Assembly: GCA_017433405.1 (NCBI GenBank)
Contig: JAFRHH010000051.1
Span: 1-43,582 of the forward strand
Reading direction: 5' to 3'
Length of the DNA: 43,582 bases
DNA from: Clostridia bacterium
Lineage (GTDB): Bacteria > Bacillota > Clostridia > Christensenellales > Aristaeellaceae
Part shown: positions 2,363 to 40,490 of the stretch, piece after piece
Layout: each line of letters opens with the position of its first letter
Numbering within the stretch: the first letter of the stretch is position 1
Position numbers and translations under genes: made by a program
Notes under the pieces: generated by a model
What the model was told of the DNA's origin: nothing
The model's database searches: none
What the model saw: the letters and a program-made list of their open reading frames with translations, nothing else

Positions 2363-4021
2363 TCAGCCGTCTCCGATTTCATCCGTCGGCTCTTCCGGGT
2401 TCTGCTGCTCCGGACCGGCGGCGTCGTCATCGCCGTCCTCCGGCTGCGGGGCGGATTCGCCTTCCGCGCCGGGCTGAGCGCCGCCCTGTCCGTAGCCCCC
2501 GCTGATCAGGCGCTCATAGGATATTTCCGCGACCCAGGCCAGGTTGGGATCACCCGTTTCCCGGATCGATTCCCGCAGGGTTTCCTCGGAGGGATTCACC
2601 ATGACCTCGAAGGTGCCCGCCCCGGTCGAAATCCGGATGGGCTGGGAAACGTCCAGCATCGCGGGATTCACCAGGATCGAGAAATCGCCGTTTACGTCGC
2701 GGGGATCCACCACCAGGCCGTTGTCTTCCTCCTGCATCGCGAAAATCAGGCCTTGGTTCACGGAAGGATCCGCCTTCAGCCAGTAGAAGCTTGTGATCTT
2801 CCGGGAGGGCGCCCGGGTGCTCAGATCCCAGTTCAGGTACGCCGGAACCGGATTCCGGGTAAACTGATTGACATACCAGACCGCGCTGGTGTTGACCTTT
2901 TTGGTTTCCAGGCCGAAATCCCGAACGACCTCCCAGCAGGCCTCATCGAGCTTTTCATTGAACCCCGCGGTATAATAGGACATCTCCATGACGCTGTCCG
3001 AGCCGGTACTCTCCTTAAAGGCCTGGACAAAGCGGTTCAGCATATCCCCCGTGATGGCGGGATCCGCGTAGGCGGTCGGGTTGGCCAGGACCTCATGCAT
3101 CACCTGCTCCTGGGCATATTCATATTCCCCCGTCAGCTGGCTGGCATCGGTATAATCGTCGTAGTTATGGGCGTCCGGCACGTGCACCAGCACCTGATGC
3201 TCATAGCCGTAATCATACAGGCCGTGAAGGTCCGCCAGCGTCTGGTCAAACTCCGCCGCCCGGACGCAGCGCATGGCCTCCTCGGTATAATAATCCCGAA
3301 TTCCGACCTGAATGCTGAAGCCGACGTTCATCAGATTGATCAGCTGAACCCCGTTCGGATGGCCGGAGGACATATTGGCCGCCGCGAACCGGTCCGCCAT
3401 TCGGGGCGTAATCTGATACACGCCGTCGCCCCCGGCAGAGAAGCCCATCAGATAGACCCGGTTCGGATCCGCGTGATACAGATAGATCATCGACTGGATC
3501 AGCCGGTCGTACAGGGGATAGGACTCCGGCTGAAAATGCAGATCCCAGGTGTTCGAAATGCCCCGAATCGCGATGTAGATCCCGTTCTGCACGTTCTCCC
3601 GGTAATAATTGTACATCGCGTACCATTCACCGTCATTGCCTTCGGGTTCATCCTCGCCGCCTCCGTGCAGCGCCAGATACAGCGGATAGCGGCCGTCTGC
3701 GTCCGGTTCCCCCCGGACCTCGATCAGGCCGCGCATGGTATGGCCGTCGTGGGTCAGCGTCAGCAGGCAGATCTGCTGCTCCGGAAAGCTCGGATGGCGC
3801 ACGGTCTCCTCGGTGATTTCGCCGCGAAGCTCCGCCTCCAGCTCCGGATCCGAGAAATAGGCCTCCGCTGCCTCCTGAACCATCCGCAGCGCCTCTTCCC
3901 GGGTTTTCGGCGCCAGCTCACCGTTGATCCGGATGATCCCCTCCGCGCCCGCGGAGCCAAGGGTCCACAGCGCCACTGTCAGCAGAACCAGCCAGCATAC
4001 GAGCCGATTTTTCATCTTCAT
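2363..4021 (-). CDS. Secreted alpha/beta-hydrolase esterase with acidic C-terminal tail
   Basis: 552 residues. An N-terminal signal peptide (Lys-Arg start, hydrophobic residues 8-20, likely cleavage after SAGA near 26) indicates export. Residues 110-290 resemble the polyhydroxybutyrate depolymerase/feruloyl-esterase fold: LALHGGG at 116-122, nucleophile Ser195 in MGFSAGG, and His285 in DAHNYDD. The last ~40 residues are rich in Gly, Pro, Asp and Glu and look disordered. The substrate is unknown; acetylated or feruloylated plant polysaccharide is a guess. ATG at 4021 sits 5 bases after AGAGGGAG; Met3 at 4015 is an alternative. The ribosome site is part of a partial copy of the interspersed 5' element. 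Confidence 0.8.
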   Translation of the reverse strand: MKMKNRLVCWLVLLTVALWTLGSAGAEGIIRINGELAPKTREEALRMVQEAAEAYFSDPELEAELRGEITEETVRHPSFPEQQICLLTLTHDGHTMRGLIEVRGEPDADGRYPLYLALHGGGEDEPEGNDGEWYAMYNYYRENVQNGIYIAIRGISNTWDLHFQPESYPLYDRLIQSMIYLYHADPNRVYLMGFSAGGDGVYQITPRMADRFAAANMSSGHPNGVQLINLMNVGFSIQVGIRDYYTEEAMRCVRAAEFDQTLADLHGLYDYGYEHQVLVHVPDAHNYDDYTDASQLTGEYEYAQEQVMHEVLANPTAYADPAITGDMLNRFVQAFKESTGSDSVMEMSYYTAGFNEKLDEACWEVVRDFGLETKKVNTSAVWYVNQFTRNPVPAYLNWDLSTRAPSRKITSFYWLKADPSVNQGLIFAMQEEDNGLVVDPRDVNGDFSILVNPAMLDVSQPIRISTGAGTFEVMVNPSEETLRESIRETGDPNLAWVAEISYERLISGGYGQGGAQPGAEGESAPQPEDGDDDAAGPEQQNPEEPTDEIGDG

Positions 4022-4060
4022 CTCTTCTCCCTCTGTGAACGTCAGTTCACGTCTGTCTTT
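4022..4060 (-). repeat. Partial copy of the interspersed 5' element (hairpin 2 plus ribosome site)
   Basis: Minus-strand sense: CAGAC, then GTGAAC-TGAC-GTTCAC (4035-4050, perfect 6-bp stem), then AGAGGGAG and the esterase ATG, with 13 bases between stem and start codon. The upstream long hairpin and most of the linker found in the full copies are missing here. It lies between the parvulin gene and the esterase gene. Confidence 0.8.
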
Positions 4061-4076
4061 CAGTTCTCCGCTCCTC

Positions 4077-8506: not shown

Positions 8507-8604
8507 GCAGGGAGACAGATTTTGTCCGCGAGCGCTCAGGCGAAAGCGGTTACAAAATCGGCATCCGCCGCAGCATGGCAGACGTGAACTGACGTTCGCA
8601 GAGG
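8507..8604 (+). repeat. Full copy of the interspersed 5' element, between metF and metH
   Basis: Fills the metF-metH gap. Hairpin 1 spans 8518-8559: GATTTTGT pairs with ACAAAATC, CCGC with GCGG, CGC with GCG around loop TCAG. A linker leads to hairpin 2, GTGAAC-TGAC-GTTCGC (8584-8599), where one pair is U-G, compatible with RNA but not with a perfect DNA palindrome. AGAGGAGG follows, and 13 bases separate the stem from the metH ATG. Aligned by eye to the parA copy it differs at about 12 of 101 columns. Confidence 0.9.
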
Positions 8605-8612
8605 AGGCGCCC

Positions 8613-11045
8613 ATGAACGTTCTCGACTACCTGAAAGAGCATTTCCTGATCCTCGACGGAGGAACCGGAACCGTCCTGCAGGCCGCTGGCCTGAAAAGCG
8701 GCGAGCGGCCGGAAACCTGGAACCTGTCCCGGCCGGAGCAGGTCGTCGCCCTGCACCGGGGCTATTACGAAGCCGGGTCCAACATCGTGGCGACCAATAC
8801 CTTCGGGGTCAATCTCTTCCACTATTCGGAGGAAGAGGCCGGGGCGCTGATCCGCGCCGCCGTGTCCCTCGCGAAGCGGGCCGCGGACGGCATCGCCCAT
8901 CCGACCTGGGTCGCTCTCGACGTCGGGCCCTCCGGAAAGCTCCTCAGGCCCCTGGGAGACCTGGATTTTGAGGAGGCGGTCCGCTGCTATGCCTTTCTCG
9001 CCCGGACCGGGCAGGCGGCCGGGGCGGATCTGATCCTGATCGAAACCATGAACGATTCCCAGGAGACCCGGGCCGCCCTGCTGGGGGCCCGGGAAGGCTG
9101 CGGCCTGCCGGTTTTCGTTTCCAACGCCTATTCGGAAAACGGTCATCTGCTGACCGGGGCCTCCCCGGAGGTCATGACCGCGATCCTTGAGGGGATGGGC
9201 GCCGACGTCATCGGCGCGAACTGCTCCTTCGGGCCGGCGGAGCTTGCTCCGGTCGTCCGGGAATACCTGCGCCACGCCTCCGTGCCCCTGCTCCTGAAGG
9301 CCAACGCCGGCCTGCCCCGGGTGGAAAACGGCGCCACGGTTTATGATATTACCCCGGAGGAATTCGCGGAGACGGAAGCCGGTCTGGCCGCGGAGGGCGT
9401 CCGGGTGCTCGGCGGCTGCTGCGGAACCACGCCGGCGCATATCCGGGCCCTGAGCCGCCGCCTCGCCGCCATGACCCCCGCCCCCCTTCCGGTCCACGCT
9501 GAAACCACCGTCACCTCCGGCTCCCAGGCCGTCTCCTTCGGCGGTGTGCCGCTGCTGATCGGGGAGCGGATCAACCCCACCGGAAAAAAACGCCTCCGCC
9601 AGGCGCTGACGGAGGGGGACTGGGGCTACGTTCTCGAGCAGGCCACGATGCAGGAGGAGAAGGGCATTCACCTGCTGGACGTCAACGTCGGCGTGCCCGG
9701 CCTCGACGAAGCCGCGGTGCTTCCCGGGCTGATCGGGGAGCTGCAGGCGGTAACCGCGCTGCCGCTGCAGATCGACACCGCCAGCCCCGAAGCCATGGAG
9801 GCCGCCCTGCGGATCTATAACGGAAAGGCCCTGATCAATTCCGTGAACGGCAAGCGGGAGAGCATGGACGCCATCTTCCCGCTGGTTAAAAAATACGGTG
9901 GCGTCGTCGTGGCGCTGACCCTGGACGAGGGCGGCATCCCGGACACGGTGGAGGGCCGGATGGTCATCGCCCGGCGGATCCTCGAAGAAGCCCGGCGCTA
10001 CGGTCTCGGTGAAAAGGATCTGGTTTTCGATACCCTGACCATGACCATCTCCGCCGCTCCCGAGGCCGCGGAGGTCACCCTCCGATCCCTGGAGCGGATC
10101 AGGACGGAGCTGGGCTGCCATACGAGCCTCGGCGTCAGCAACGTCTCCTTCGGCTTGCCGGACCGGGAGGGCATCAATTCCGCCTTCTTCGCCCTCGCCA
10201 TCGAGCGGGGGCTCTCCGCCGCCATCATGAACCCCTTCTCCGACGCGATGATGAAAACCTGGCGGGCCTGCAACGCCCTGCGCCGGCTGGATCCGAACTG
10301 CGGCGAATGGATCCGCCGCGCGGCGGCGGAAAAGCCCGCCGGTGCTGCCTCCGCCGCTTCCACGGCCCCCGCCGCTTCCCCGGCGGCCCCGGAGGCCGTT
10401 TCCACCCTCAGCCGGGCGGTCGTCAAGGGCTTCCGCCGCCGGGCGGCCGAGCTGACCCAGGAAGGGCTCCGGGAGCGGGAGGGCATGGCCCTCATTCAGG
10501 AGGAGATCATCCCCGCCCTGAACGAGGTCGGCCGGGCCTTTGAAAAGCAAACCCTCTTCCTGCCCCAGCTGCTGATGAGCGCCGAAGCCGCCGCCGCCGC
10601 CTTCGAGGTGATCCGTGCCGCCTCCGGGAAGGCCGGTTCCGTCCGGCCCCGGGGAAAGATCGTTCTGGCGACGGTCCACGGCGACGTTCACGATATCGGA
10701 AAGAACATCGTCCGGCTGCTGCTGGAAAACTACGGCTTCGAGGTCGTCGACCTGGGCAGGGACGTGCCGGCGGAGACGGTGCTGGAAGCCGTTCTCCGGG
10801 AAAAGGCGCCCCTGGTCGGCCTCAGCGCCCTGATGACCACCACCGTCCCCGCCATGGAGGAGACCATCCGGCTGATCCACGAGCGGGCCCCGGGGGTTCG
10901 TGTGCTGGTGGGCGGCGCCGTGCTGACCCCCGAATACGCCCGGCAGATCGGCGCCGACGGCTACGGCGCAGACGCCATGGACGCCGTCCGCTACGCCCTG
11001 AGCTGTCAGGGGGAATATCCCCCGGAATCCTTTATCCGAGGATAA
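8613..11045 (+). CDS. metH: Cobalamin-dependent methionine synthase, lacking the reactivation domain
   Basis: 810 residues. An N-terminal homocysteine-binding barrel (about 1-290) keeps zinc cysteines in NCSFGP (near 203) and GGCCGTT (near 267-268). A pterin-binding barrel (about 310-570) starts at [13 protein letters not shown]. After an Ala/Pro-rich linker (codons near 570-595) come the four-helix cap and the B12 domain with [10 protein letters not shown] (near 688-697), whose His is the lower cobalt ligand. The SAM-dependent reactivation domain of E. coli MetH is absent, as in many Clostridia, so a separate reactivator is expected. ATG 8613 follows AGAGGAGG supplied by the 5' element. Its 3' end overlaps the convergent cellobiose phosphorylase gene by 14 bases. 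Confidence 0.94.
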
Positions 11046-13544: not shown

Positions 13545-13654
13545 ACCTTTCCTTTATCCCCGCGGGGGGGCTTCCCGGCCCCGCGCGGACCTTCCCTTTG
13601 TCATCGCGAGGTCTGCCAGCGGTTTCTTACCTGCCCTGCGCGGACTTTTCCCTG
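13536..13654. repeat. Three dispersed copies of a 20-base GC-rich motif
   Basis: Related 20-mers start at 13536 (CCTGCGCAAACCTTTCCTTT), 13580 and 13635, in the same orientation, with 15-16 of 20 identical bases between pairs. The first touches the -35 region of the phosphorylase promoter, the second is intergenic and the third lies in the last codons of the ABC-F gene. Meaning unknown; possibly decayed duplication. Confidence 0.4.
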
Positions 13655-15234
13655 GTCTTCTCCAGGTATTCCTCATAGCTGCACAGATAGTCCGTAATCG
13701 TCCCGTCATCGTGAATCTCGATAATCCGGTCCGCCACGGTGGAGATGAACTGGTGGTCCTGGCTGGTAAAGATCACGTTGCCGGGGAAGCTGATCAGGGC
13801 GTTGTTGACCGCCTGGATGGATTCCAGATCCAGATGGTTCGTCGGCTGATCCAGCATGAGGAAATTCGCCCCGGAGAGCATCATCCGGCTCAGCATGCAG
13901 CGAACCTTCTCGCCGCCGGAGAGGACGCTGACGGGCTTGTAGACGTCGTCACCGGAGAACAGCATCCGCCCCAGGAAGCCCCGCATATAGGTTTCCAGCT
14001 GCTCCGGCGAATACTGGGCGAACCACTGCATCATGTTCAGACTGCAGCCGTCGAAGAAGGCGCTGTTGTCCTTGGGGAAATAGTTGGTCGTAATGGTCAC
14101 GCCCCACTTCACCGTTCCGCTGTCGGGCTGAATCTCCTCCGCCAGGATCCGGAACAGCGCCGTCTGAGCCTGCTCGTTTCCGACCAGGGCGATCTTCTGC
14201 CCCTTGGTGACCAGGAAGCTGACGTCCTTCAGCAGCCGGACCCCGTCCTGGGTATAATTGAGATCCGTCACCTGCAGGATGTCCTTCCCCGCCTCCCGGT
14301 CCGGGGTAAAGTTGACCCAGGGATACCGCCGGCTGGAGGCCGGCATCTCCTCCACCTTCAGCTGGTCCAGCAGCTTCCGGCGGCTGGTGGCCTGCCGCGC
14401 CTTGCTCTTGTTGCTGGAGAAGCGCTGGATAAAGGCCTGCAGCTCCCGGATCTTGTCCTCCCGCCGCTTCTTCTGGTCGTTCATCAGGGACTGCATCATC
14501 TTGCTGGACTCGTACCAGAAGTCGTAGTTGCCGACATACATCTTCACCTGGTTGTAGTCGATATCCACGATGTGGGTACAGATATTGTTCAGGAACCAGC
14601 GGTCATGGCTGACCACGATCAGGGTTCCCGGGAAGTCCATCAGGAAGTTTTCCAGCCAGTCCACGGACCGGTTGTCCAGGTTGTTGGTCGGCTCGTCCAG
14701 CAGCAGAATATCCGGGTTCCCGAAAAGGGCCTGGGCCAGCAGGACCTTGAACTTGTCCCCGGCCTGGAGCTCCTTCATCAGCTGGGTATGCGCCTCGGTG
14801 GGAATCCCCAGCCCCGTCAGGAGCGTCGCCGCGTCGCTTTCCGCGTTCCACCCGTCCAGTTCCGCGAACTCGCCCTCCAGCTCCGCGGCCTTCTCGCCGT
14901 CGGCCTCGCTGAAGTCCGGCTTGGCGTAGAGCGCATCCTTCTCCTTCATGATATCATAAAGCCGCTGGTTCCCCATGATGACCGTGTCCATCACGGGATA
15001 TTCGTCGTACATGAACTGATCCTGCTTCAGGGTGCTCATCCGCTCGTTCGGCGGAATGGTCACCGTGCCGGTGGTGGGCTCCAGCTCGCCGCTGAGGATC
15101 TTCAGAAAGGTGGATTTTCCCGCGCCGTTGGCGCCGATAATGCCGTAACAGTTGCCCGGCAGAAATTTCAAATCCACCCCGGAAAAGAGCTTCTGTCCGC
15201 CGAAGGTCAGGGATACGTTGCTGACTGTAATCAT
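13627..15234 (-). CDS. ABC-F ATPase (YbiT/YkpA-like) with degenerate second ATP site
   Basis: 535 residues, two ATPase domains, no membrane segment. Domain 1 has intact Walker A GANGAGKS (34-41), Walker B LLLDEPTN (177-184) and switch VSHDR. An Arg/Lys-rich linker (about 241-300) is the P-site tRNA-interaction motif. Domain 2 keeps signature LSGGE (438-442), but Walker A reads GNEQAQTAL (352-360) without the Lys-Ser/Thr, the catalytic Glu is Gln463 in LDQPTN, and the switch reads SQDHQ (491-495). ABC-F proteins act on the ribosome; antibiotic resistance is not implied. ATG 15234 overlaps the pepV stop (ATGA), and its ribosome site lies in an element copy. Confidence 0.9.
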   Translation of the reverse strand: MITVSNVSLTFGGQKLFSGVDLKFLPGNCYGIIGANGAGKSTFLKILSGELEPTTGTVTIPPNERMSTLKQDQFMYDEYPVMDTVIMGNQRLYDIMKEKDALYAKPDFSEADGEKAAELEGEFAELDGWNAESDAATLLTGLGIPTEAHTQLMKELQAGDKFKVLLAQALFGNPDILLLDEPTNNLDNRSVDWLENFLMDFPGTLIVVSHDRWFLNNICTHIVDIDYNQVKMYVGNYDFWYESSKMMQSLMNDQKKRREDKIRELQAFIQRFSSNKSKARQATSRRKLLDQLKVEEMPASSRRYPWVNFTPDREAGKDILQVTDLNYTQDGVRLLKDVSFLVTKGQKIALVGNEQAQTALFRILAEEIQPDSGTVKWGVTITTNYFPKDNSAFFDGCSLNMMQWFAQYSPEQLETYMRGFLGRMLFSGDDVYKPVSVLSGGEKVRCMLSRMMLSGANFLMLDQPTNHLDLESIQAVNNALISFPGNVIFTSQDHQFISTVADRIIEIHDDGTITDYLCSYEEYLEKTREKSAQGR

Positions 15235-16643
15235 CTGTTTTCCTCCTCTGTGAACGTTAGTTCACGTCCGCCGTCCTCCTGTCCGCAGAGCCGGATCAGC
15301 GCCTCGGCGTAGATTTTCGCCGCCAGGATCAGCCGGTCCAGATCCTGGAACTCGTTGGGCTGATGGGCCAGCTCCTCCTCGTCCGGGAACATGGCGCCAA
15401 AGGCAACGCCCTGCTTCATGATCTTCGCGTAGGTTCCCCCGCCGGTCGCCATGGGCTCGCCCGCCAGCCCGGTCGCCTCCCGGTAAGCCCCCAGCAGGTC
15501 GGAAACCAGCTCCCCCTCCGCCGGAACGTGGTGGCCCGGCTTTTCCGCCGCCGTCGCCGCCTCCCATCCGGAAAGCCGCGCCCGGGCAGCCGCCTGGATC
15601 GCCTTCAGATCCGCCGTCACCGGGCAGCGGAAGTCCAGGGTAGCGAACCAGGAGCCGTCCTCCTCCAGTCGCAGGATCCCCAGGTTGCAGGTCAGCGGCC
15701 CGGAAACCCCGTCCCGGCAGGCGCAGCCCAGGCTGGCCCCGTCGCTCTCCGTCCCGACGGCCTCCGCCAGCTGCTTAAGGCCCCCCGTGGCCCCCAGGGC
15801 CCGGAACATCACCAGCATCATCCCGATCGCGTTCCGCTTTCCCTCGGGATAGGCGCTGTGGCCGCCGATTCCCCGGGCGGTAATCTCGACGCCCTCTTCC
15901 GTGACCCGGGCCTCGTAGGGCAGCTGCCACTCCCGCGAAAGGCGCCGGACCTTTTCCGCCGTCTCCGGCCCGCCGGCCACAACCGCCCGGCATTCCGCGG
16001 GAATCACGTTAACCCGGGTTCCCCCGTTCATCCGGATCACCCGCAGGCCCTCCGGCTCCGCCTTTCCCCGGAGCTCCAACACCACCATGGCCTTTTCCGT
16101 ATTGATCAGGGGAAAGGCCGCGTCGGGGCTGAAGCCCATCTCCGGCATGTCCGTATGGGCCATGTAGTATGCCATATCCTCCCATTCGGATTCCTCGTCG
16201 CAGCCGAGGATCAGCCGGATCCCCCGCCGAAGGGGAATCCCCGCCTCGCGGATAGCGTTCATTGCAAAGATCGCGGCCACGACGGGCCCCTTGTCGTCGT
16301 TGGTTCCCCGGCCGTACAGCCGGCTGCCCCGGAGAACCGGCTCAAAAGGCGGCGTCTCCCATCCGTCCCCCGCCGGCACCACGTCCAGATGGCCCAGCAC
16401 GGCGATCTGCTCCCCCTCCGGGCCCATGGCCGCGTCGCAGGCATAGCCGTCGAAATCCCGCACCGGATACCCCATTCCCCGAAGATCCGCTATCGCCCGG
16501 TCCAGCATCCGCCGGTTTTCCCGTCCGAAGGGCGCCCCCGGCTCCGGATCGCTCCGGAGGGAGGGAATCCGCACCCAGCTTTTCAACAGCTCCGTCATTT
16601 CTTCCCGATGGTCGTCCAGCCACCGGTTCACCCGCTCGTTCAT
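15231..16643 (-). CDS. pepV: Dipeptidase PepV, M20 zinc metallopeptidase
   Basis: 470 residues from ATG 16643, chosen over an upstream in-frame start because AAGGAG lies 6 bases ahead and the family begins near MNERVNRWLDDH. Catalytic landmarks are LGHLDVVPAGDGW (zinc His and Asp), GRGTNDDKGP (bridging Asp), GCDEESEWED (general base Glu) and GIGGHSAYPEGK of the lid domain. It cleaves dipeptides in the cytoplasm. The last ~13 residues (GRELTFTEEENR) are encoded by the partial 5' element, so the C-terminus seems to have been extended when the element landed; the stop overlaps the ABC-F start. Transcribed with the 97-aa gene upstream. Confidence 0.93.
   Translation of the reverse strand: MNERVNRWLDDHREEMTELLKSWVRIPSLRSDPEPGAPFGRENRRMLDRAIADLRGMGYPVRDFDGYACDAAMGPEGEQIAVLGHLDVVPAGDGWETPPFEPVLRGSRLYGRGTNDDKGPVVAAIFAMNAIREAGIPLRRGIRLILGCDEESEWEDMAYYMAHTDMPEMGFSPDAAFPLINTEKAMVVLELRGKAEPEGLRVIRMNGGTRVNVIPAECRAVVAGGPETAEKVRRLSREWQLPYEARVTEEGVEITARGIGGHSAYPEGKRNAIGMMLVMFRALGATGGLKQLAEAVGTESDGASLGCACRDGVSGPLTCNLGILRLEEDGSWFATLDFRCPVTADLKAIQAAARARLSGWEAATAAEKPGHHVPAEGELVSDLLGAYREATGLAGEPMATGGGTYAKIMKQGVAFGAMFPDEEELAHQPNEFQDLDRLILAAKIYAEALIRLCGQEDGGRELTFTEEENR
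15243..15290 (-). repeat. Partial copy of the interspersed 5' element inside the 3' end of pepV
   Basis: Minus-strand sense: a linker-like GCGGACAG...GGCGGAC, then GTGAAC-TAAC-GTTCAC (15250-15265, perfect 6-bp stem), then AGAGGAGG and 15 bases from stem to the ABC-F ATG. Hairpin 1 is missing. Unlike the other copies it is read through as the closing codons of pepV. Confidence 0.8.
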
Positions 16644-16657
16644 GGCTCGCTCCTTTT

Positions 16658-16951
16658 TTAAAACGCGTTTCTCGGATCCCGGCTCTTTTTCTTCGGCGCG
16701 TCCGGGTCGATGTATTCGATTTCCAGCCGTTCGAAGGGAACCGCCTCGAAGAAGGCCTCCGGCAGGAATCGGGTCATCCCGAACTCCTGCCATTCCCGTT
16801 CGTTCTTTTCCAGCCAGAGGGGCTCCGGCAGATCCAGCCCATGGCAGGCCTCGCGCAGGGCCTCATGGGGATCGTCCCGCCGGCAGGGCACCGTCGCCTG
16901 CCGATCCGTCCGGTGATTCCGAATGGTTTTCACCCAAAGCGCTTCCGCCAT
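16658..16951 (-). CDS. Conserved hypothetical protein, 97 aa
   Basis: 97 residues, soluble, with a basic start (VKTIRNHRTDRQ), central CHGLDLPEPLWLEKNEREWQ and a charged C-terminus ending near KKKSRDPRN. It resembles short uncharacterised proteins found in Clostridia, but I know no function. It has no signal peptide or membrane segment. ATG 16951 follows GGAAGGA. It is the first gene of the operon 97-aa protein, pepV, ABC-F, and its stop lies 14 bases before the pepV start. Confidence 0.75.
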   Translation of the reverse strand: MAEALWVKTIRNHRTDRQATVPCRRDDPHEALREACHGLDLPEPLWLEKNEREWQEFGMTRFLPEAFFEAVPFERLEIEYIDPDAPKKKSRDPRNAF

Positions 16952-18976: not shown

Positions 18977-19453
18977 CTACTGCAGGCTGTTGACCAGGGT
19001 CTGCAGCTCCGCCAGCCCGTTTTGCAGATTCGTCTGATATTCCCCGGTATCCATCCCGGTGGTCAGAAACGCCAGATAGCGATCCACCGTATTCTGCAGC
19101 GACAGCAGCGTATCGTCCGCCATCAGCGTGCCGCCGCCGGCCCCCGCCAGGGAGTTGATCGTCCGCATGGCGTAGATGCAGCTGCGGACCCGGGAGAGGA
19201 TCGCCGCCGAATCCGCCCCGGCGTTCCGGCTCAGGGTCGTCGTCTGCCGGATGGCCTCGTCGCACTCCGACTGCATCCGCTGCAGGTACAGCGTCCGCTC
19301 CCCCTGCTGATTCCGCAGGCTCGGGAGCGCGATCAGGACCAGCGCCGCCACCGCCGCGATCAAAAGAAGGATCAGGATATTCTTGATCCGGTTCATGGTC
19401 CGCTGGGATCGCGGAAGAAGGTTGTTATCCCCCTGGGAATAACGCCTGTACAT
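18977..19453 (-). CDS. Hypothetical single-pass membrane protein, 158 aa
   Basis: A basic cytoplasmic N-terminus (about 1-22) precedes one hydrophobic segment (ILILLLIAAVAALVLIAL, about 26-43) and an extracytoplasmic, mostly helical domain with many Gln, Ser and Thr. It is not recognised. Topology resembles small envelope or secretion-associated proteins. ATG 19453 has GGGAGGG upstream; Met20 is an alternative start directly before the membrane segment. A full copy of the 5' element lies between promoter and start codon. Probably co-transcribed with uvrC. Confidence 0.7.
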   Translation of the reverse strand: MYRRYSQGDNNLLPRSQRTMNRIKNILILLLIAAVAALVLIALPSLRNQQGERTLYLQRMQSECDEAIRQTTTLSRNAGADSAAILSRVRSCIYAMRTINSLAGAGGGTLMADDTLLSLQNTVDRYLAFLTTGMDTGEYQTNLQNGLAELQTLVNSLQ

Positions 19454-19465
19454 GGTTTCGCCCTC

Positions 19466-19560
19466 CCTTCTCCACTATGAACAATAGTCCACGTCTGCCA
19501 TTCGATCCAGATGACGATTTTGCAGCCGCTTCGCTTATGCGTTCGCGGACAAAATCTGTC
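19466..19560 (-). repeat. Full, partly decayed copy of the interspersed 5' element
   Basis: Hairpin 1 (19516-19556) keeps GATTTTGT against GCAAAATC, with a T-G pair where other copies have T-A, plus CCGC/GCGG and CGC/GCG with the loop changed to ATAA. The linker ATGGCAGAC is unchanged. Hairpin 2 (19477-19492) is weakened (GTGGAC..GTTCAT in sense), and the distance to the start codon has grown to 23 bases. It lies between the promoter at 19575-19603 and the start codon, so it should be transcribed as 5' UTR. Confidence 0.88.
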
Positions 19561-19574
19561 CCGGTACTTTGTTC

Positions 19575-29442: not shown

Positions 29443-29492
29443 GTATTGTCGCTGCCTCCTTCCTGCTTATTACAGGTTCTTTTCAAAAGCGC

Positions 29493-30326
29493 TTACTTGT
29501 TTCCGGCGCGCTTGACGATCATCTTGTTGCTGTACTTCTTGTGCTTCCGGGTCTTCAGGCCCAGCGCGGGCTTGCCCCAGGGAGTCACGGGAGCAGGCAT
29601 ACCGACGGGGCTCTTGCCCTCGCCGCCGCCGTGCGGATGGTCGCAGGGGTTCATGACAACGCCGCGGACCGTCGGTCTCACGCCCATGTGGCGAACCCGG
29701 CCGGCCTTGCCGATCCGGACGTTCTCATGGTCCGTATTTCCCACGGTTCCGATGGTGGCCTTGGCGTTCAGCGGGAGCTTTCTCATCTCGCCGCTGGGCA
29801 GCCTCACCTGGGCAAAGCCGTTTTCCTTGGCCATCAGCTGGGCGCTCATGCCGGCGCTGCGAACCAGCTGGCCGCCCCGGCCGGGCTTGAGCTCCAGGTT
29901 GTGGATCAGCGTACCGACGGGGATGTTGCTGATGGGCAGCGCGTTGCCGGGCTTGATGTCGGCGGAGTCGCTGGAAACCACGGTGTCCCCGACCTTCAGC
30001 CCCAGCGGCGCCAGGATGTAGCGCTTCTCGCCGTCGGCGTAGAACAGCAGGGCGATAAAGGCGCTGCGGTTGGGGTCATACTCGATGGCGCTGACTCTGG
30101 CGGGAATGTCCACCTTGTCGCGCTTGAAGTCGATGATACGATACTTAACCTTATTGCCGCCGCCCTGATGACGGACGGTGATCTTGCCCTGATTGTTCCG
30201 GCCGGAATTCTTCTTGAGAACCTCCGTCAGGCTCTTCTCCGGGGCCTTCTTGGTGACCTCTTCATAGGTCAGAACCGACATAAACCGCCGGGCGGGCGAA
30301 GTCGGCTTGTAAACACGAATAGCCAT
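29493..30326 (-). CDS. rplB: Ribosomal protein L2 (uL2)
   Basis: 277 residues: [20 protein letters not shown] near residue 45, and the peptidyl-transferase region [19 protein letters not shown] with the essential His. Ends [15 protein letters not shown]. Needed for subunit joining and peptidyl transfer. Confidence 0.98.
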
Positions 30327-39619: not shown

Positions 39620-40387
39620 TTATTTTTTCCGGTTCCGTTTGAGCACCTCCGCCGCCAGCGCCTGATAGGCCGCCGCCCCGGTACTCTTCGGATCGTATAC
39701 CGTAATAGGCTCCCCGTGGCTCGGCGCCTCCCCCAGCCGTACATTCCGGGGAATCACCGTCGCGAACACTTCCTTTTTGAAGTGCTTCTTGACCTGATCC
39801 ACCACCTGCAGCCCCAGATTCGTCCGCCCGTCCAGCATCGTCAGCAGGATTCCCTCGATCTCCAGATGGGGATGAATCGTCTTCCGGACCCGGCTGATGG
39901 TGCTCATCAGGCTCGTCACCCCCTCCAGCGCGTAATACTCGCACTGGATCGGAATCAGCACGGAATCCGCCGCCGCCATGGCGTTCAGCGTCAGAAGGCT
40001 CAGGCTCGGCGGGCAGTCGATAAAGATGAAGTCGTATTCCTCCCGCTCCGGCCCCAGCACCTTTTTCAGGTAGAATTCGCGTTCCGCCACGCCCACCAGC
40101 TCCACCTCAGCCCCGGCCAGGCGGATGTCCGCCCCCACCAGCTTCAGCTTCTTCACGCCGGTCTTCTGAACGCAGTCCCGGAGCCTCGTCCGCCCCATCA
40201 TCGCGTCATAGATGGAATCACGCTCCCCGACGGCGCAGCCCAGCCCGCTGGTCGTGTTTCCCTGGGGATCCAGATCCACCATCAGAACCTTCTTCCCCGT
40301 CTCCGCCAGGGCGGCGGACAGATTCACGGCGGTGGTCGTCTTTCCGACCCCGCCCTTCTGATTCGCAATTGCAATGATCCTCGCCAT
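39620..40387 (-). CDS. parA: Chromosome partitioning ATPase ParA (Soj)
   Basis: 255 residues, chromosomal Soj type without the N-terminal DNA-binding domain of plasmid ParA. Deviant Walker A is KGGVGKTTT at 11-19, DLDPQGN at 38-44, and Walker B FIDCPPSLSLL. It drives origin segregation with ParB. ATG 40387 is preceded by AGAGGAG, supplied by the 5' element that fills most of its leader. Neighbouring gidA/rsmG or oriC genes often seen with parAB are absent. Confidence 0.96.
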   Translation of the reverse strand: MARIIAIANQKGGVGKTTTAVNLSAALAETGKKVLMVDLDPQGNTTSGLGCAVGERDSIYDAMMGRTRLRDCVQKTGVKKLKLVGADIRLAGAEVELVGVAEREFYLKKVLGPEREEYDFIFIDCPPSLSLLTLNAMAAADSVLIPIQCEYYALEGVTSLMSTISRVRKTIHPHLEIEGILLTMLDGRTNLGLQVVDQVKKHFKKEVFATVIPRNVRLGEAPSHGEPITVYDPKSTGAAAYQALAAEVLKRNRKK

Positions 40388-40391
40388 ACTG

Positions 40392-40490
40392 ACTCCTCTG
40401 TGAACGGCAGTTCACGTCTGCCATTCTGTCCGGATGACGATTTTGTAACCGCTTCGCCTGAGCGTTCGCGGACAAAATCCGTCTCCTTGC
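40392..40490 (-). repeat. Full copy of the interspersed 5' element, leader of parA
   Basis: Sense is the minus strand. Hairpin 1 spans 40439-40479: GATTTTGT/ACAAAATC (8 bp), CCGC/GCGG (4 bp, two-base bulge TT), internal loop, CGC/GCG around TCAG. The linker ends ATGGCAGAC. Hairpin 2 spans 40400-40415, GTGAAC-TGCC-GTTCAC, followed by AGAGGAG and the parA ATG 12 bases beyond the stem. The promoter at 40525-40553 lies upstream, so the element should be RNA. Confidence 0.92.

Follow-up and report, generated by a model that had tools for sequence, protein, structure and literature searches.

The window considered here, by which we mean the whole 43,582-nucleotide stretch (contig 26 in a draft genome of 2.53 Mb, at 89% completeness), raises the question of why the same short structured element should stand before the start codons of five open reading frames (ORFs), among them parA. 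Two answers were offered in the preliminary description of this DNA, namely a MITE- or BOX-like repeat equipped with a Shine–Dalgarno (SD) sequence of its own, or a genome-wide translational control RNA. The analyses presented below favor the former, and we consider it likely, with good confidence, that we are dealing with a MITE/REP-like, non-autonomous mobile element, about 90 bp in length, which enters GGAG and regenerates the SD. By the tests run here, it is neither a GTAG/CGTC REP, nor a MITE bearing terminal inverted repeats, nor a conserved riboswitch-type leader.

The element has a strong hairpin 1 near its left end and a small hairpin 2 adjoining its right end, which reads AGAGGAG. 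The five loci at which it had been reported, always in sense to the downstream ORF, all carry the sequences as described, and the reported stem-to-start distances of 12, 13, 13, 15 and 23 bases hold when read from these loci (Table 1). The pattern for hairpin 2 and the SD, allowing up to 3 mismatches, matches 5 sites in the window compared to 0.03 expected, a number reached by none of 100 shuffles. Among the window genes, the assignments as ParA-type ATPase, MetH-type protein and ABC-F type are supported by Pfam, while neither the proposed "esterase" nor the 158-aa protein has a Pfam match. At the gathering score, an Rfam search of the window returned five tRNAs only, and the parA copy had no match up to E=1. 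The extent of the element needed revision, as the left boundary is the GGAG preceding ACAGATTTTG.

Table 1. Coordinates of the element copies, their parts and associated genes (window positions, except for the last row).
Feature	Position	Strand	Details
Full element before parA	40393..40486	-	Left GGAG = native SD (40483-40486), hairpin 1, linker, hairpin 2, new AGAGGAG
Hairpin 1 core, parA copy: GATTTTGT-CCGC ... GCGG-TT-ACAAAATC	40439..40479	-	Sequence reading, covariance, fold
Hairpin 2 as drawn, parA copy: GTGAAC-TGCC-GTTCAC	40400..40415	-	Sequence and right-end pattern
Replacement SD AGAGGAG, 3' end of parA copy	40393..40399	-	parA ATG next, at 40387-40385
ParA-type ATPase gene, native SD = insertion point	39620..40387	-	Pfam, relatives' loci
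Full element before MetH-type gene (8613-11045)	8511..8606	+	Left GGAG 8511-8514, new SD 8600-8606; empty site in G005
Full, more diverged element before 158-aa gene (18977-19453)	19470..19563	-	SD-like AAGGGAGG between copy and start
Right-end-only copy (hairpin 2 and SD) before ABC-F gene (13627-15234)	15243..15273	-	Upstream ORF 15231-16793 reads through the copy
Right-end-only copy before 552-aa ORF (2363-4021), the "esterase" of the preliminary description	4030..4064	-	ORF without Pfam match
Shared 1.9-kb stretch with one element copy	L058:604-2494 (this genome), L148:1-1894 (G009)

A scan of the genome for further copies, as had been proposed, found well over a hundred more. Using a covariance model built from 37 copies, we obtained at least 149 matches to the full-length model genome-wide (150 of 2020 candidates scored), while BLAST with the parA copy gave at least 50 matches, the full-length ones besides the query being 88–94% identical to it (40 of 317 candidates scored). 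The right-end pattern (hairpin 2 and SD) occurs at 290 genome sites, 130 on the plus and 160 on the minus strand, with 0 for a reversed control, and the left-end pattern at 122 sites (control 0), the two patterns being unequally strict, with 19 vs 22 fixed letters and 3 mismatches allowed in both. Well over a hundred sites have thus come to carry the element in this bacterium. Outside it, the exact right-end pattern is found at one locus of a genome collection that may exclude the window's own genome, and has no match among viral contigs. This locus, on a Streptomyces contig (L308:5-30), is a single exact match with the sense end AGAGGAGGAGA and no other element part in 120 bases, and is probably due to chance.

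The excess of right over left ends, together with the fact that 76 of 207 right-end units in the stretches we fetched lack hairpin 1, is what would be expected if the element were retro-copied through an RNA intermediate, leaving 5'-truncated copies. However, both contrasts are inflated, because the patterns are unequally strict and the lone right ends were partly picked by their right-end match. In addition, selection for the SD explains why right ends would outlast left ends, and several truncated copies start within the element at GACAGA, a motif also present at its left end, a pattern compatible with deletion between direct repeats. Retro-copying is thus the reading to which we give the least credence.

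Comparison with relatives provides insight into what these sites looked like before the element arrived. At parA, 42 relatives gave a match and the loci of 29 of them were retrieved; the element, sought within 250 bp, is absent in 29/29. In seven of these 29, GGAG lies exactly 5 nt before the parA ATG, which is the spacing found here after the copy; these seven include the five best-scoring parA relatives (G009, G037, G020, G005 and G011), and a promoter-like parA leader is common to G020, G005, G011 and this genome. As the native GGAG is found at identical spacing in seven of the empty parA sites, the repeat sits at the native SD and ends in a replacement AGAGGAG. At metH, the element is likewise absent in all 18 loci examined out of 29 fetched (L233-L243, 11 loci of ~50% identity, were left out), and one of the 18, G005, shows GGAG at the same 6-nt distance as here. 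Upstream of ABC-F, GGGAG is uninterrupted in G009 and G037 and lies 7 nt from the same ATG, compared to 8 nt here, while for the "esterase" ORF no usable orthologue was found for such a comparison. That insertion takes place at the native SD itself had been missed in the preliminary description. In the case of the 158-aa gene, the SD-like AAGGGAGG is retained downstream of the copy and is also present in G009 and G037, and the entry point of this copy was therefore probably immediately 5' of the native SD. Its 23-base distance, which had been attributed to decay, is correct as a distance, but the copy looks to be such an upstream insertion, with AAGGGAGG still in place.

The boundaries of the element point in the same direction. 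The alignment of copies gives the consensus GGAG-ACAGATTTTGTCCGCGAACGC-N4-GCGAAGCGGTTACAAAATC-GTCATCCGGACAGAATGGCAGAC-GTGAAC-N4-GTTCAC-AGAGGAG, in which a GGAG-like tetranucleotide flanks the element and GGAG is present on both sides. Among 83 copies whose GGAG-to-GGAG unit was measured, its length is 90 bp in 39 (range 67 to 93 bp overall) and divisible by 3 in 47. Among 88 non-abutting full copies, the left flank reads GGAG in 61, AGAG in 9, TGAG in 8 and CGAG in 4, with 6 other or unreadable, that is, NGAG in 82/88, a count biased toward GAG, since copies entered it only where the model extended to their left edge (30 of 131 full copies were thereby excluded). The base composition 5' of the left GGAG shows a mild A excess only. 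Finally, head-to-tail contact with another copy is seen for 13 of the 101 whose left edge is visible, and at such junctions a single GGAG serves as the right end of one copy and the left end of the following one.

A MITE mobilized by a DDE transposase, with GGAG as a 4-bp target-site duplication, would likewise leave clean empty sites and a GGAG on either side. This is nevertheless unlikely, considering that the ends of the consensus read from the alignment, ACAGATTTTG on the left and TTCACAGAGGAG on the right, are not inverted repeats, that the tetranucleotide is common to nearly all copies, and that the orientation to the target is fixed. Missing inverted repeats, a fixed tetranucleotide and a fixed orientation are none of them typical of DDE elements.

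We next consider the mobile element from the side of its targets, using 384 kb of fetched stretches with 207 right-end units (hairpin 1 is present in 131 and missing from 76, these last being partly selected deliberately by right-end match), and counting as a gene start any ATG-started ORF of at least 60 codons (40 if running off the stretch) that begins 3–25 nt downstream. Such an ORF lies near the intact right end in sense in 106 of 190 units and in antisense in 15, and in 106/172 and 14, respectively, when 20 units with another unit after them are left out. By the same criterion, the background is 13.0% for random positions (2596/20000) and 17.1% for other GGAG sites (867/5069). The commonest GGAG-to-ATG spacing is 9 nt (20/106). 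Of the 66 free right ends (out of 172) that have no ATG-started ORF within 3–25 nt, 18 have a GTG or TTG, and the remaining 48 are inside genes, decayed, or unexplained. A cruder count over 149 model matches, taking any start codon within 45 nt, gives 114 sense vs 49 antisense. Placement is hence not random, with the excess on the sense strand that the preliminary description had anticipated for a genome-wide scan. Taken together with the empty sites, the element often appears to insert exactly at the ribosome-binding site (RBS) before a gene, providing a new RBS at its own end and leaving the gene still translatable.

A minority of copies is found inside coding genes. One sense frame of the consensus is open for 30 codons, and a second is also open. 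An FtsK/SpoIIIE-type protein (L019:63-3095) contains two in-frame copies before its FtsK alpha domain, and an HI0933-like flavoprotein (L025:1025-2413) contains one, which splits the Rossmann-domain match; here, 56 residues separate the aligned blocks compared to 5 in the solved relative 2i0z, with the element making up about 31 of them. These three copies, in two genes, are the domain-verified cases, while a 527-aa ORF holding two copies has no Pfam match. We rejected coding read-through by itself as statistical evidence, because among 131 full copies antisense read-through is equally frequent (26 antisense vs 29 sense at a loose cut, and 9 vs 10 at a strict cut).

The position at start codons is also what one would expect of a cis-acting translational control RNA spread by selection, that is, of a regulon with a shared leader, and the pairing of the hairpins therefore deserves scrutiny. 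When copies are selected by hairpin 1 alone (n = 127), the arms of hairpin 2 show identities of 0.90 and 0.89, compared to 0.91 for the SD, 0.86 for the linker and 0.71 for the loop, such that the stem is kept better than the loop. Cells changed on both sides that still pair number 10 vs a shuffle mean of 3.7 (10 being reached in 1/500 shuffles), and those that no longer pair number 5 vs 2.7. This points to a constraint on hairpin-2 pairing, which may stem from mobility or translation alike, so that the needs of mobility could equally account for it.

Predicted folds are less favorable to hairpin 2 as drawn in the preliminary description (GUGAAC/GUUCAC). While its sequence is present, it is the minimum-energy stem in only one of the five folded window leaders (that of the esterase); the parA, metH and ABC-F leaders fold this stretch in another register, which in parA takes in the linker, and the predicted fold of the 158-aa leader does not form hairpin 2. 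For hairpin 1, the parA leader has the most pronounced fold (z = -3.5), in which the left GGA is predicted to pair with an internal UCC at the foot of hairpin 1, extending its base by GGAGAC/GTC-A-TCC, with the new AGAGGAG unpaired. Values are milder for the metH and 158-aa leaders (z of -1.4 and -1.6, respectively), and the minimum-energy fold of metH lacks the left GGA/UCC pairing. The models would thus have the old SD buried and the new SD free in the parA leader, and less clearly so in the other two full window copies.

Changes that conserve pairing, which had been put forward from the window copies, are borne out across species but not within this genome, where covariation is nearly nil (1/25 predicted pairs changed on both sides, term 0.03). 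Across species, 8/24 pairs changed on both sides, six of the eight in hairpin 1, with 30 both-side cells vs 8.9 (sd 3.2) in shuffled alignments and 12 in the best slid version, although this is one alignment of 27 with the structure drawn on those same sequences; hairpin 2 pairs in 73.5% of its cells.

The distribution of the element also bears on this question. Our first model detected it in 5/81 genomes, its own included, under stricter filters, and a second model that included relatives' sequences gave matches in 6/40 other genomes, with 22 rows in G026, including two that are echoes on the opposite strand, 13 in G043, and one each in G042, G009, G018 and G007, the last being marginal. At least 13 matches are found in only 3/41 genomes (its own by the first model and 40 others by the second), and the expansion of the element is restricted to few species. 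The versions in G026, G043 and G042 differ in sequence but keep the layout. Out of 28 relatives' element loci tried, 12 were unplaceable (one a duplicate), and among the 16 copies with a placeable right end, 11 stand before an ORF opening with ATG and 15 before a start of some kind. The G009 copy lies within at least 1.9 kb that is 97% identical to this genome, whereas the parA proteins of the two are 88% identical. Since this stretch is more alike than the parA proteins, the G009 copy was probably transferred, and the shared stretch appears to reflect a recent horizontal transfer.

Taking all this into account, we regard a control RNA as very unlikely. A leader with a regulatory role would have to be missing from every relative's parA and metH locus examined and yet be abundant in few species; it would have to tolerate head-to-tail abutting copies and copies within coding genes; the three Pfam-matched window genes have no evident common function; and hairpin 2 as drawn is the optimal predicted stem in only one of the five window leaders. 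A riboswitch or regulon leader of the conserved type was rejected because the relatives' leaders examined lack the element and Rfam gave no match. Of the two answers originally proposed, it is thus the repeat with its own SD that high copy number, empty sites, head-to-tail copies and species-restricted expansion uphold, and the genome-wide control RNA that its absence from relatives (0/29 at parA and 0/18 at metH), its presence in few species and the copies in coding sequence argue against.

As to how such a mobile element would move, the hairpins near both ends, the lack of inverted repeats, and the target tetranucleotide at the left and right ends lead us to infer that insertion proceeds on one strand, through an HUH (IS200/IS605-type) reaction making use of the hairpins. 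The element would enter single-stranded DNA at a GGAG of the sense strand, and entry of this kind would account for the fixed orientation and for ends that carry GGAG but no terminal inverted repeats, as well as for the head-to-tail arrays, which would arise when a new copy enters the GGAG of an older one. As the copy would restore the SD at the right spacing, an otherwise lethal insertion would be nearly harmless to translation. Such a mechanism fits the sequence data, but no autonomous parent was found in this 89% complete genome: among 100 listed left ends (122 in all), 11 lie outside model matches, and all 11 look like truncated or internally shortened copies.

A fuller reading, which we advance tentatively and as possible rather than probable, is that of a mobile family that prefers ribosome-binding sites. 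Its members would enter as single strands at the GGAG of an SD, hide the old SD in the left hairpin (GGA pairing with the internal TCC), and present a fresh SD after the right hairpin at native spacing, making a lethal site safe and taking over the leaders of on the order of at least 100 genes as their translation-initiation regions, while the 30-codon open frame would allow in-frame entry at a coding GGAG.

The identity of the enzyme is a separate matter, and one candidate is encoded in the genome, which holds exactly one Y1_Tnp match. The best NCBIfam match of this gene (C5:805-1548) is the REP-associated tyrosine transposase NF047646 (58.5 bits, below the 80-bit cut-off), the HVH motif is present, and a full element copy lies 150 bp upstream, with none within 200 bp downstream. 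Between this copy and the Y1 gene start, we also note 18-nt-spaced repeats of the GTTCGTTAAGGAA type, in five overlapping copies (L057:1553-1659). The element could then be the REP of this genome's RAYT/TIRYT and be mobilized by that enzyme, in line with this being the sole Y1 gene, of the REP-associated type, and with the hairpins, high copy number and strand-specific placement.

We consider this doubtful, as one copy beside one gene is weak evidence when many genes have copies, and as the Y1 genes of relatives (L073-L101) are flanked by a different repeat. In a scan of 330 bp upstream and 200 bp downstream, a GGGGACGG/GGGACAG-type hairpin core is found on both sides of 22/29 of these genes (25 upstream and 23 downstream), and degenerate GGGGACGG-type cores also occur near this genome's Y1 gene. 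Furthermore, the presence of Y1, found in 28/45 genus genomes, has no visible link with that of the element, and G043, with its 13 element matches, has no detected Y1 at 77% completeness. A RAYT as the cognate enzyme is therefore weakened by both the flanking repeat and the lack of co-occurrence. The arms of the Y1-flanking hairpins vary from gene to gene, which makes them a possible set for studying hairpin–transposase co-evolution. In G021, three loci (C71:6274-6381, C6:4377-4484 and C86:43485-43592) match the C-terminal 36 Y1 residues only, at 58% identity and with one TGA each, and suggest internally deleted copies of such a Y1 element.

Among known systems, the element we favor as mobile resembles IS200/IS605-derived elements in its hairpins near both ends, its lack of terminal inverted repeats, its fixed short left target and its strand-specific orientation. 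These undergo single-strand cleavage at sites set by a guide 5' of each palindrome (PMC8266576). The present element differs in that its target is GGAG, its right end restores GGAG, hairpin 1 lies almost at the target, there is no evident classical 5' guide, and no transposase with these ends was found. With GTAG/CGTC REPs and the BIME/REPIN arrangements associated with RAYT/TIRYT enzymes it shares high copy number, hairpins, species-specific families, clustered units and a RAYT-like gene in the genome. In contrast to them, it has no unpaired GTAG or CGTC tag (the left end before the hairpin reads GGAGACA), is ~90 bp long and contains two unlike hairpins. Furthermore, REPs are described as predominantly downstream of coding regions (PMC3733652), whereas our element is mostly found just before start codons. 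TIRYT genes have terminal inverted repeats with a GGGGWSAS motif (PMC3733652), and these resemble the repeat flanking the relatives' Y1 genes and not the element.

BOX of Streptococcus pneumoniae is likewise an interspersed, modular repeat, transcribed with its neighbors and with open frames in some copies (PMC3049150), as in some copies here. However, the excerpted source places such repeats in excess between convergent genes, and the excerpt does not describe insertion into an SD (PMC3049150). Rickettsia palindromic elements, which are mobile and can be in frame within protein genes (PMC10969869), recall the in-frame copies seen here. These copies are a minority in our case (three domain-supported), and the main niche is the SD.

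A literature search, conducted mostly without subscription papers, found no report of a repeat that both enters and rebuilds an SD. Short bacterial repeats are usually thought to persist where they are harmless, for example, downstream of genes, and this element instead appears to persist in the highly sensitive RBS by rebuilding what its insertion breaks. If this is true, a selfish repeat has replaced the translation-initiation regions of many genes in one species, creating a natural experiment in which one standard SD-plus-hairpin cassette is placed before many different genes, and GGAG provides a testable target rule for the mobilizing enzyme.

Finally, the window also contains two 30-nt stretches that are 83% identical to one another (604-633 and 29477-29506), with the core AAAAGCGCTTAC, which overlap the 3' ends of minus-strand ORFs.
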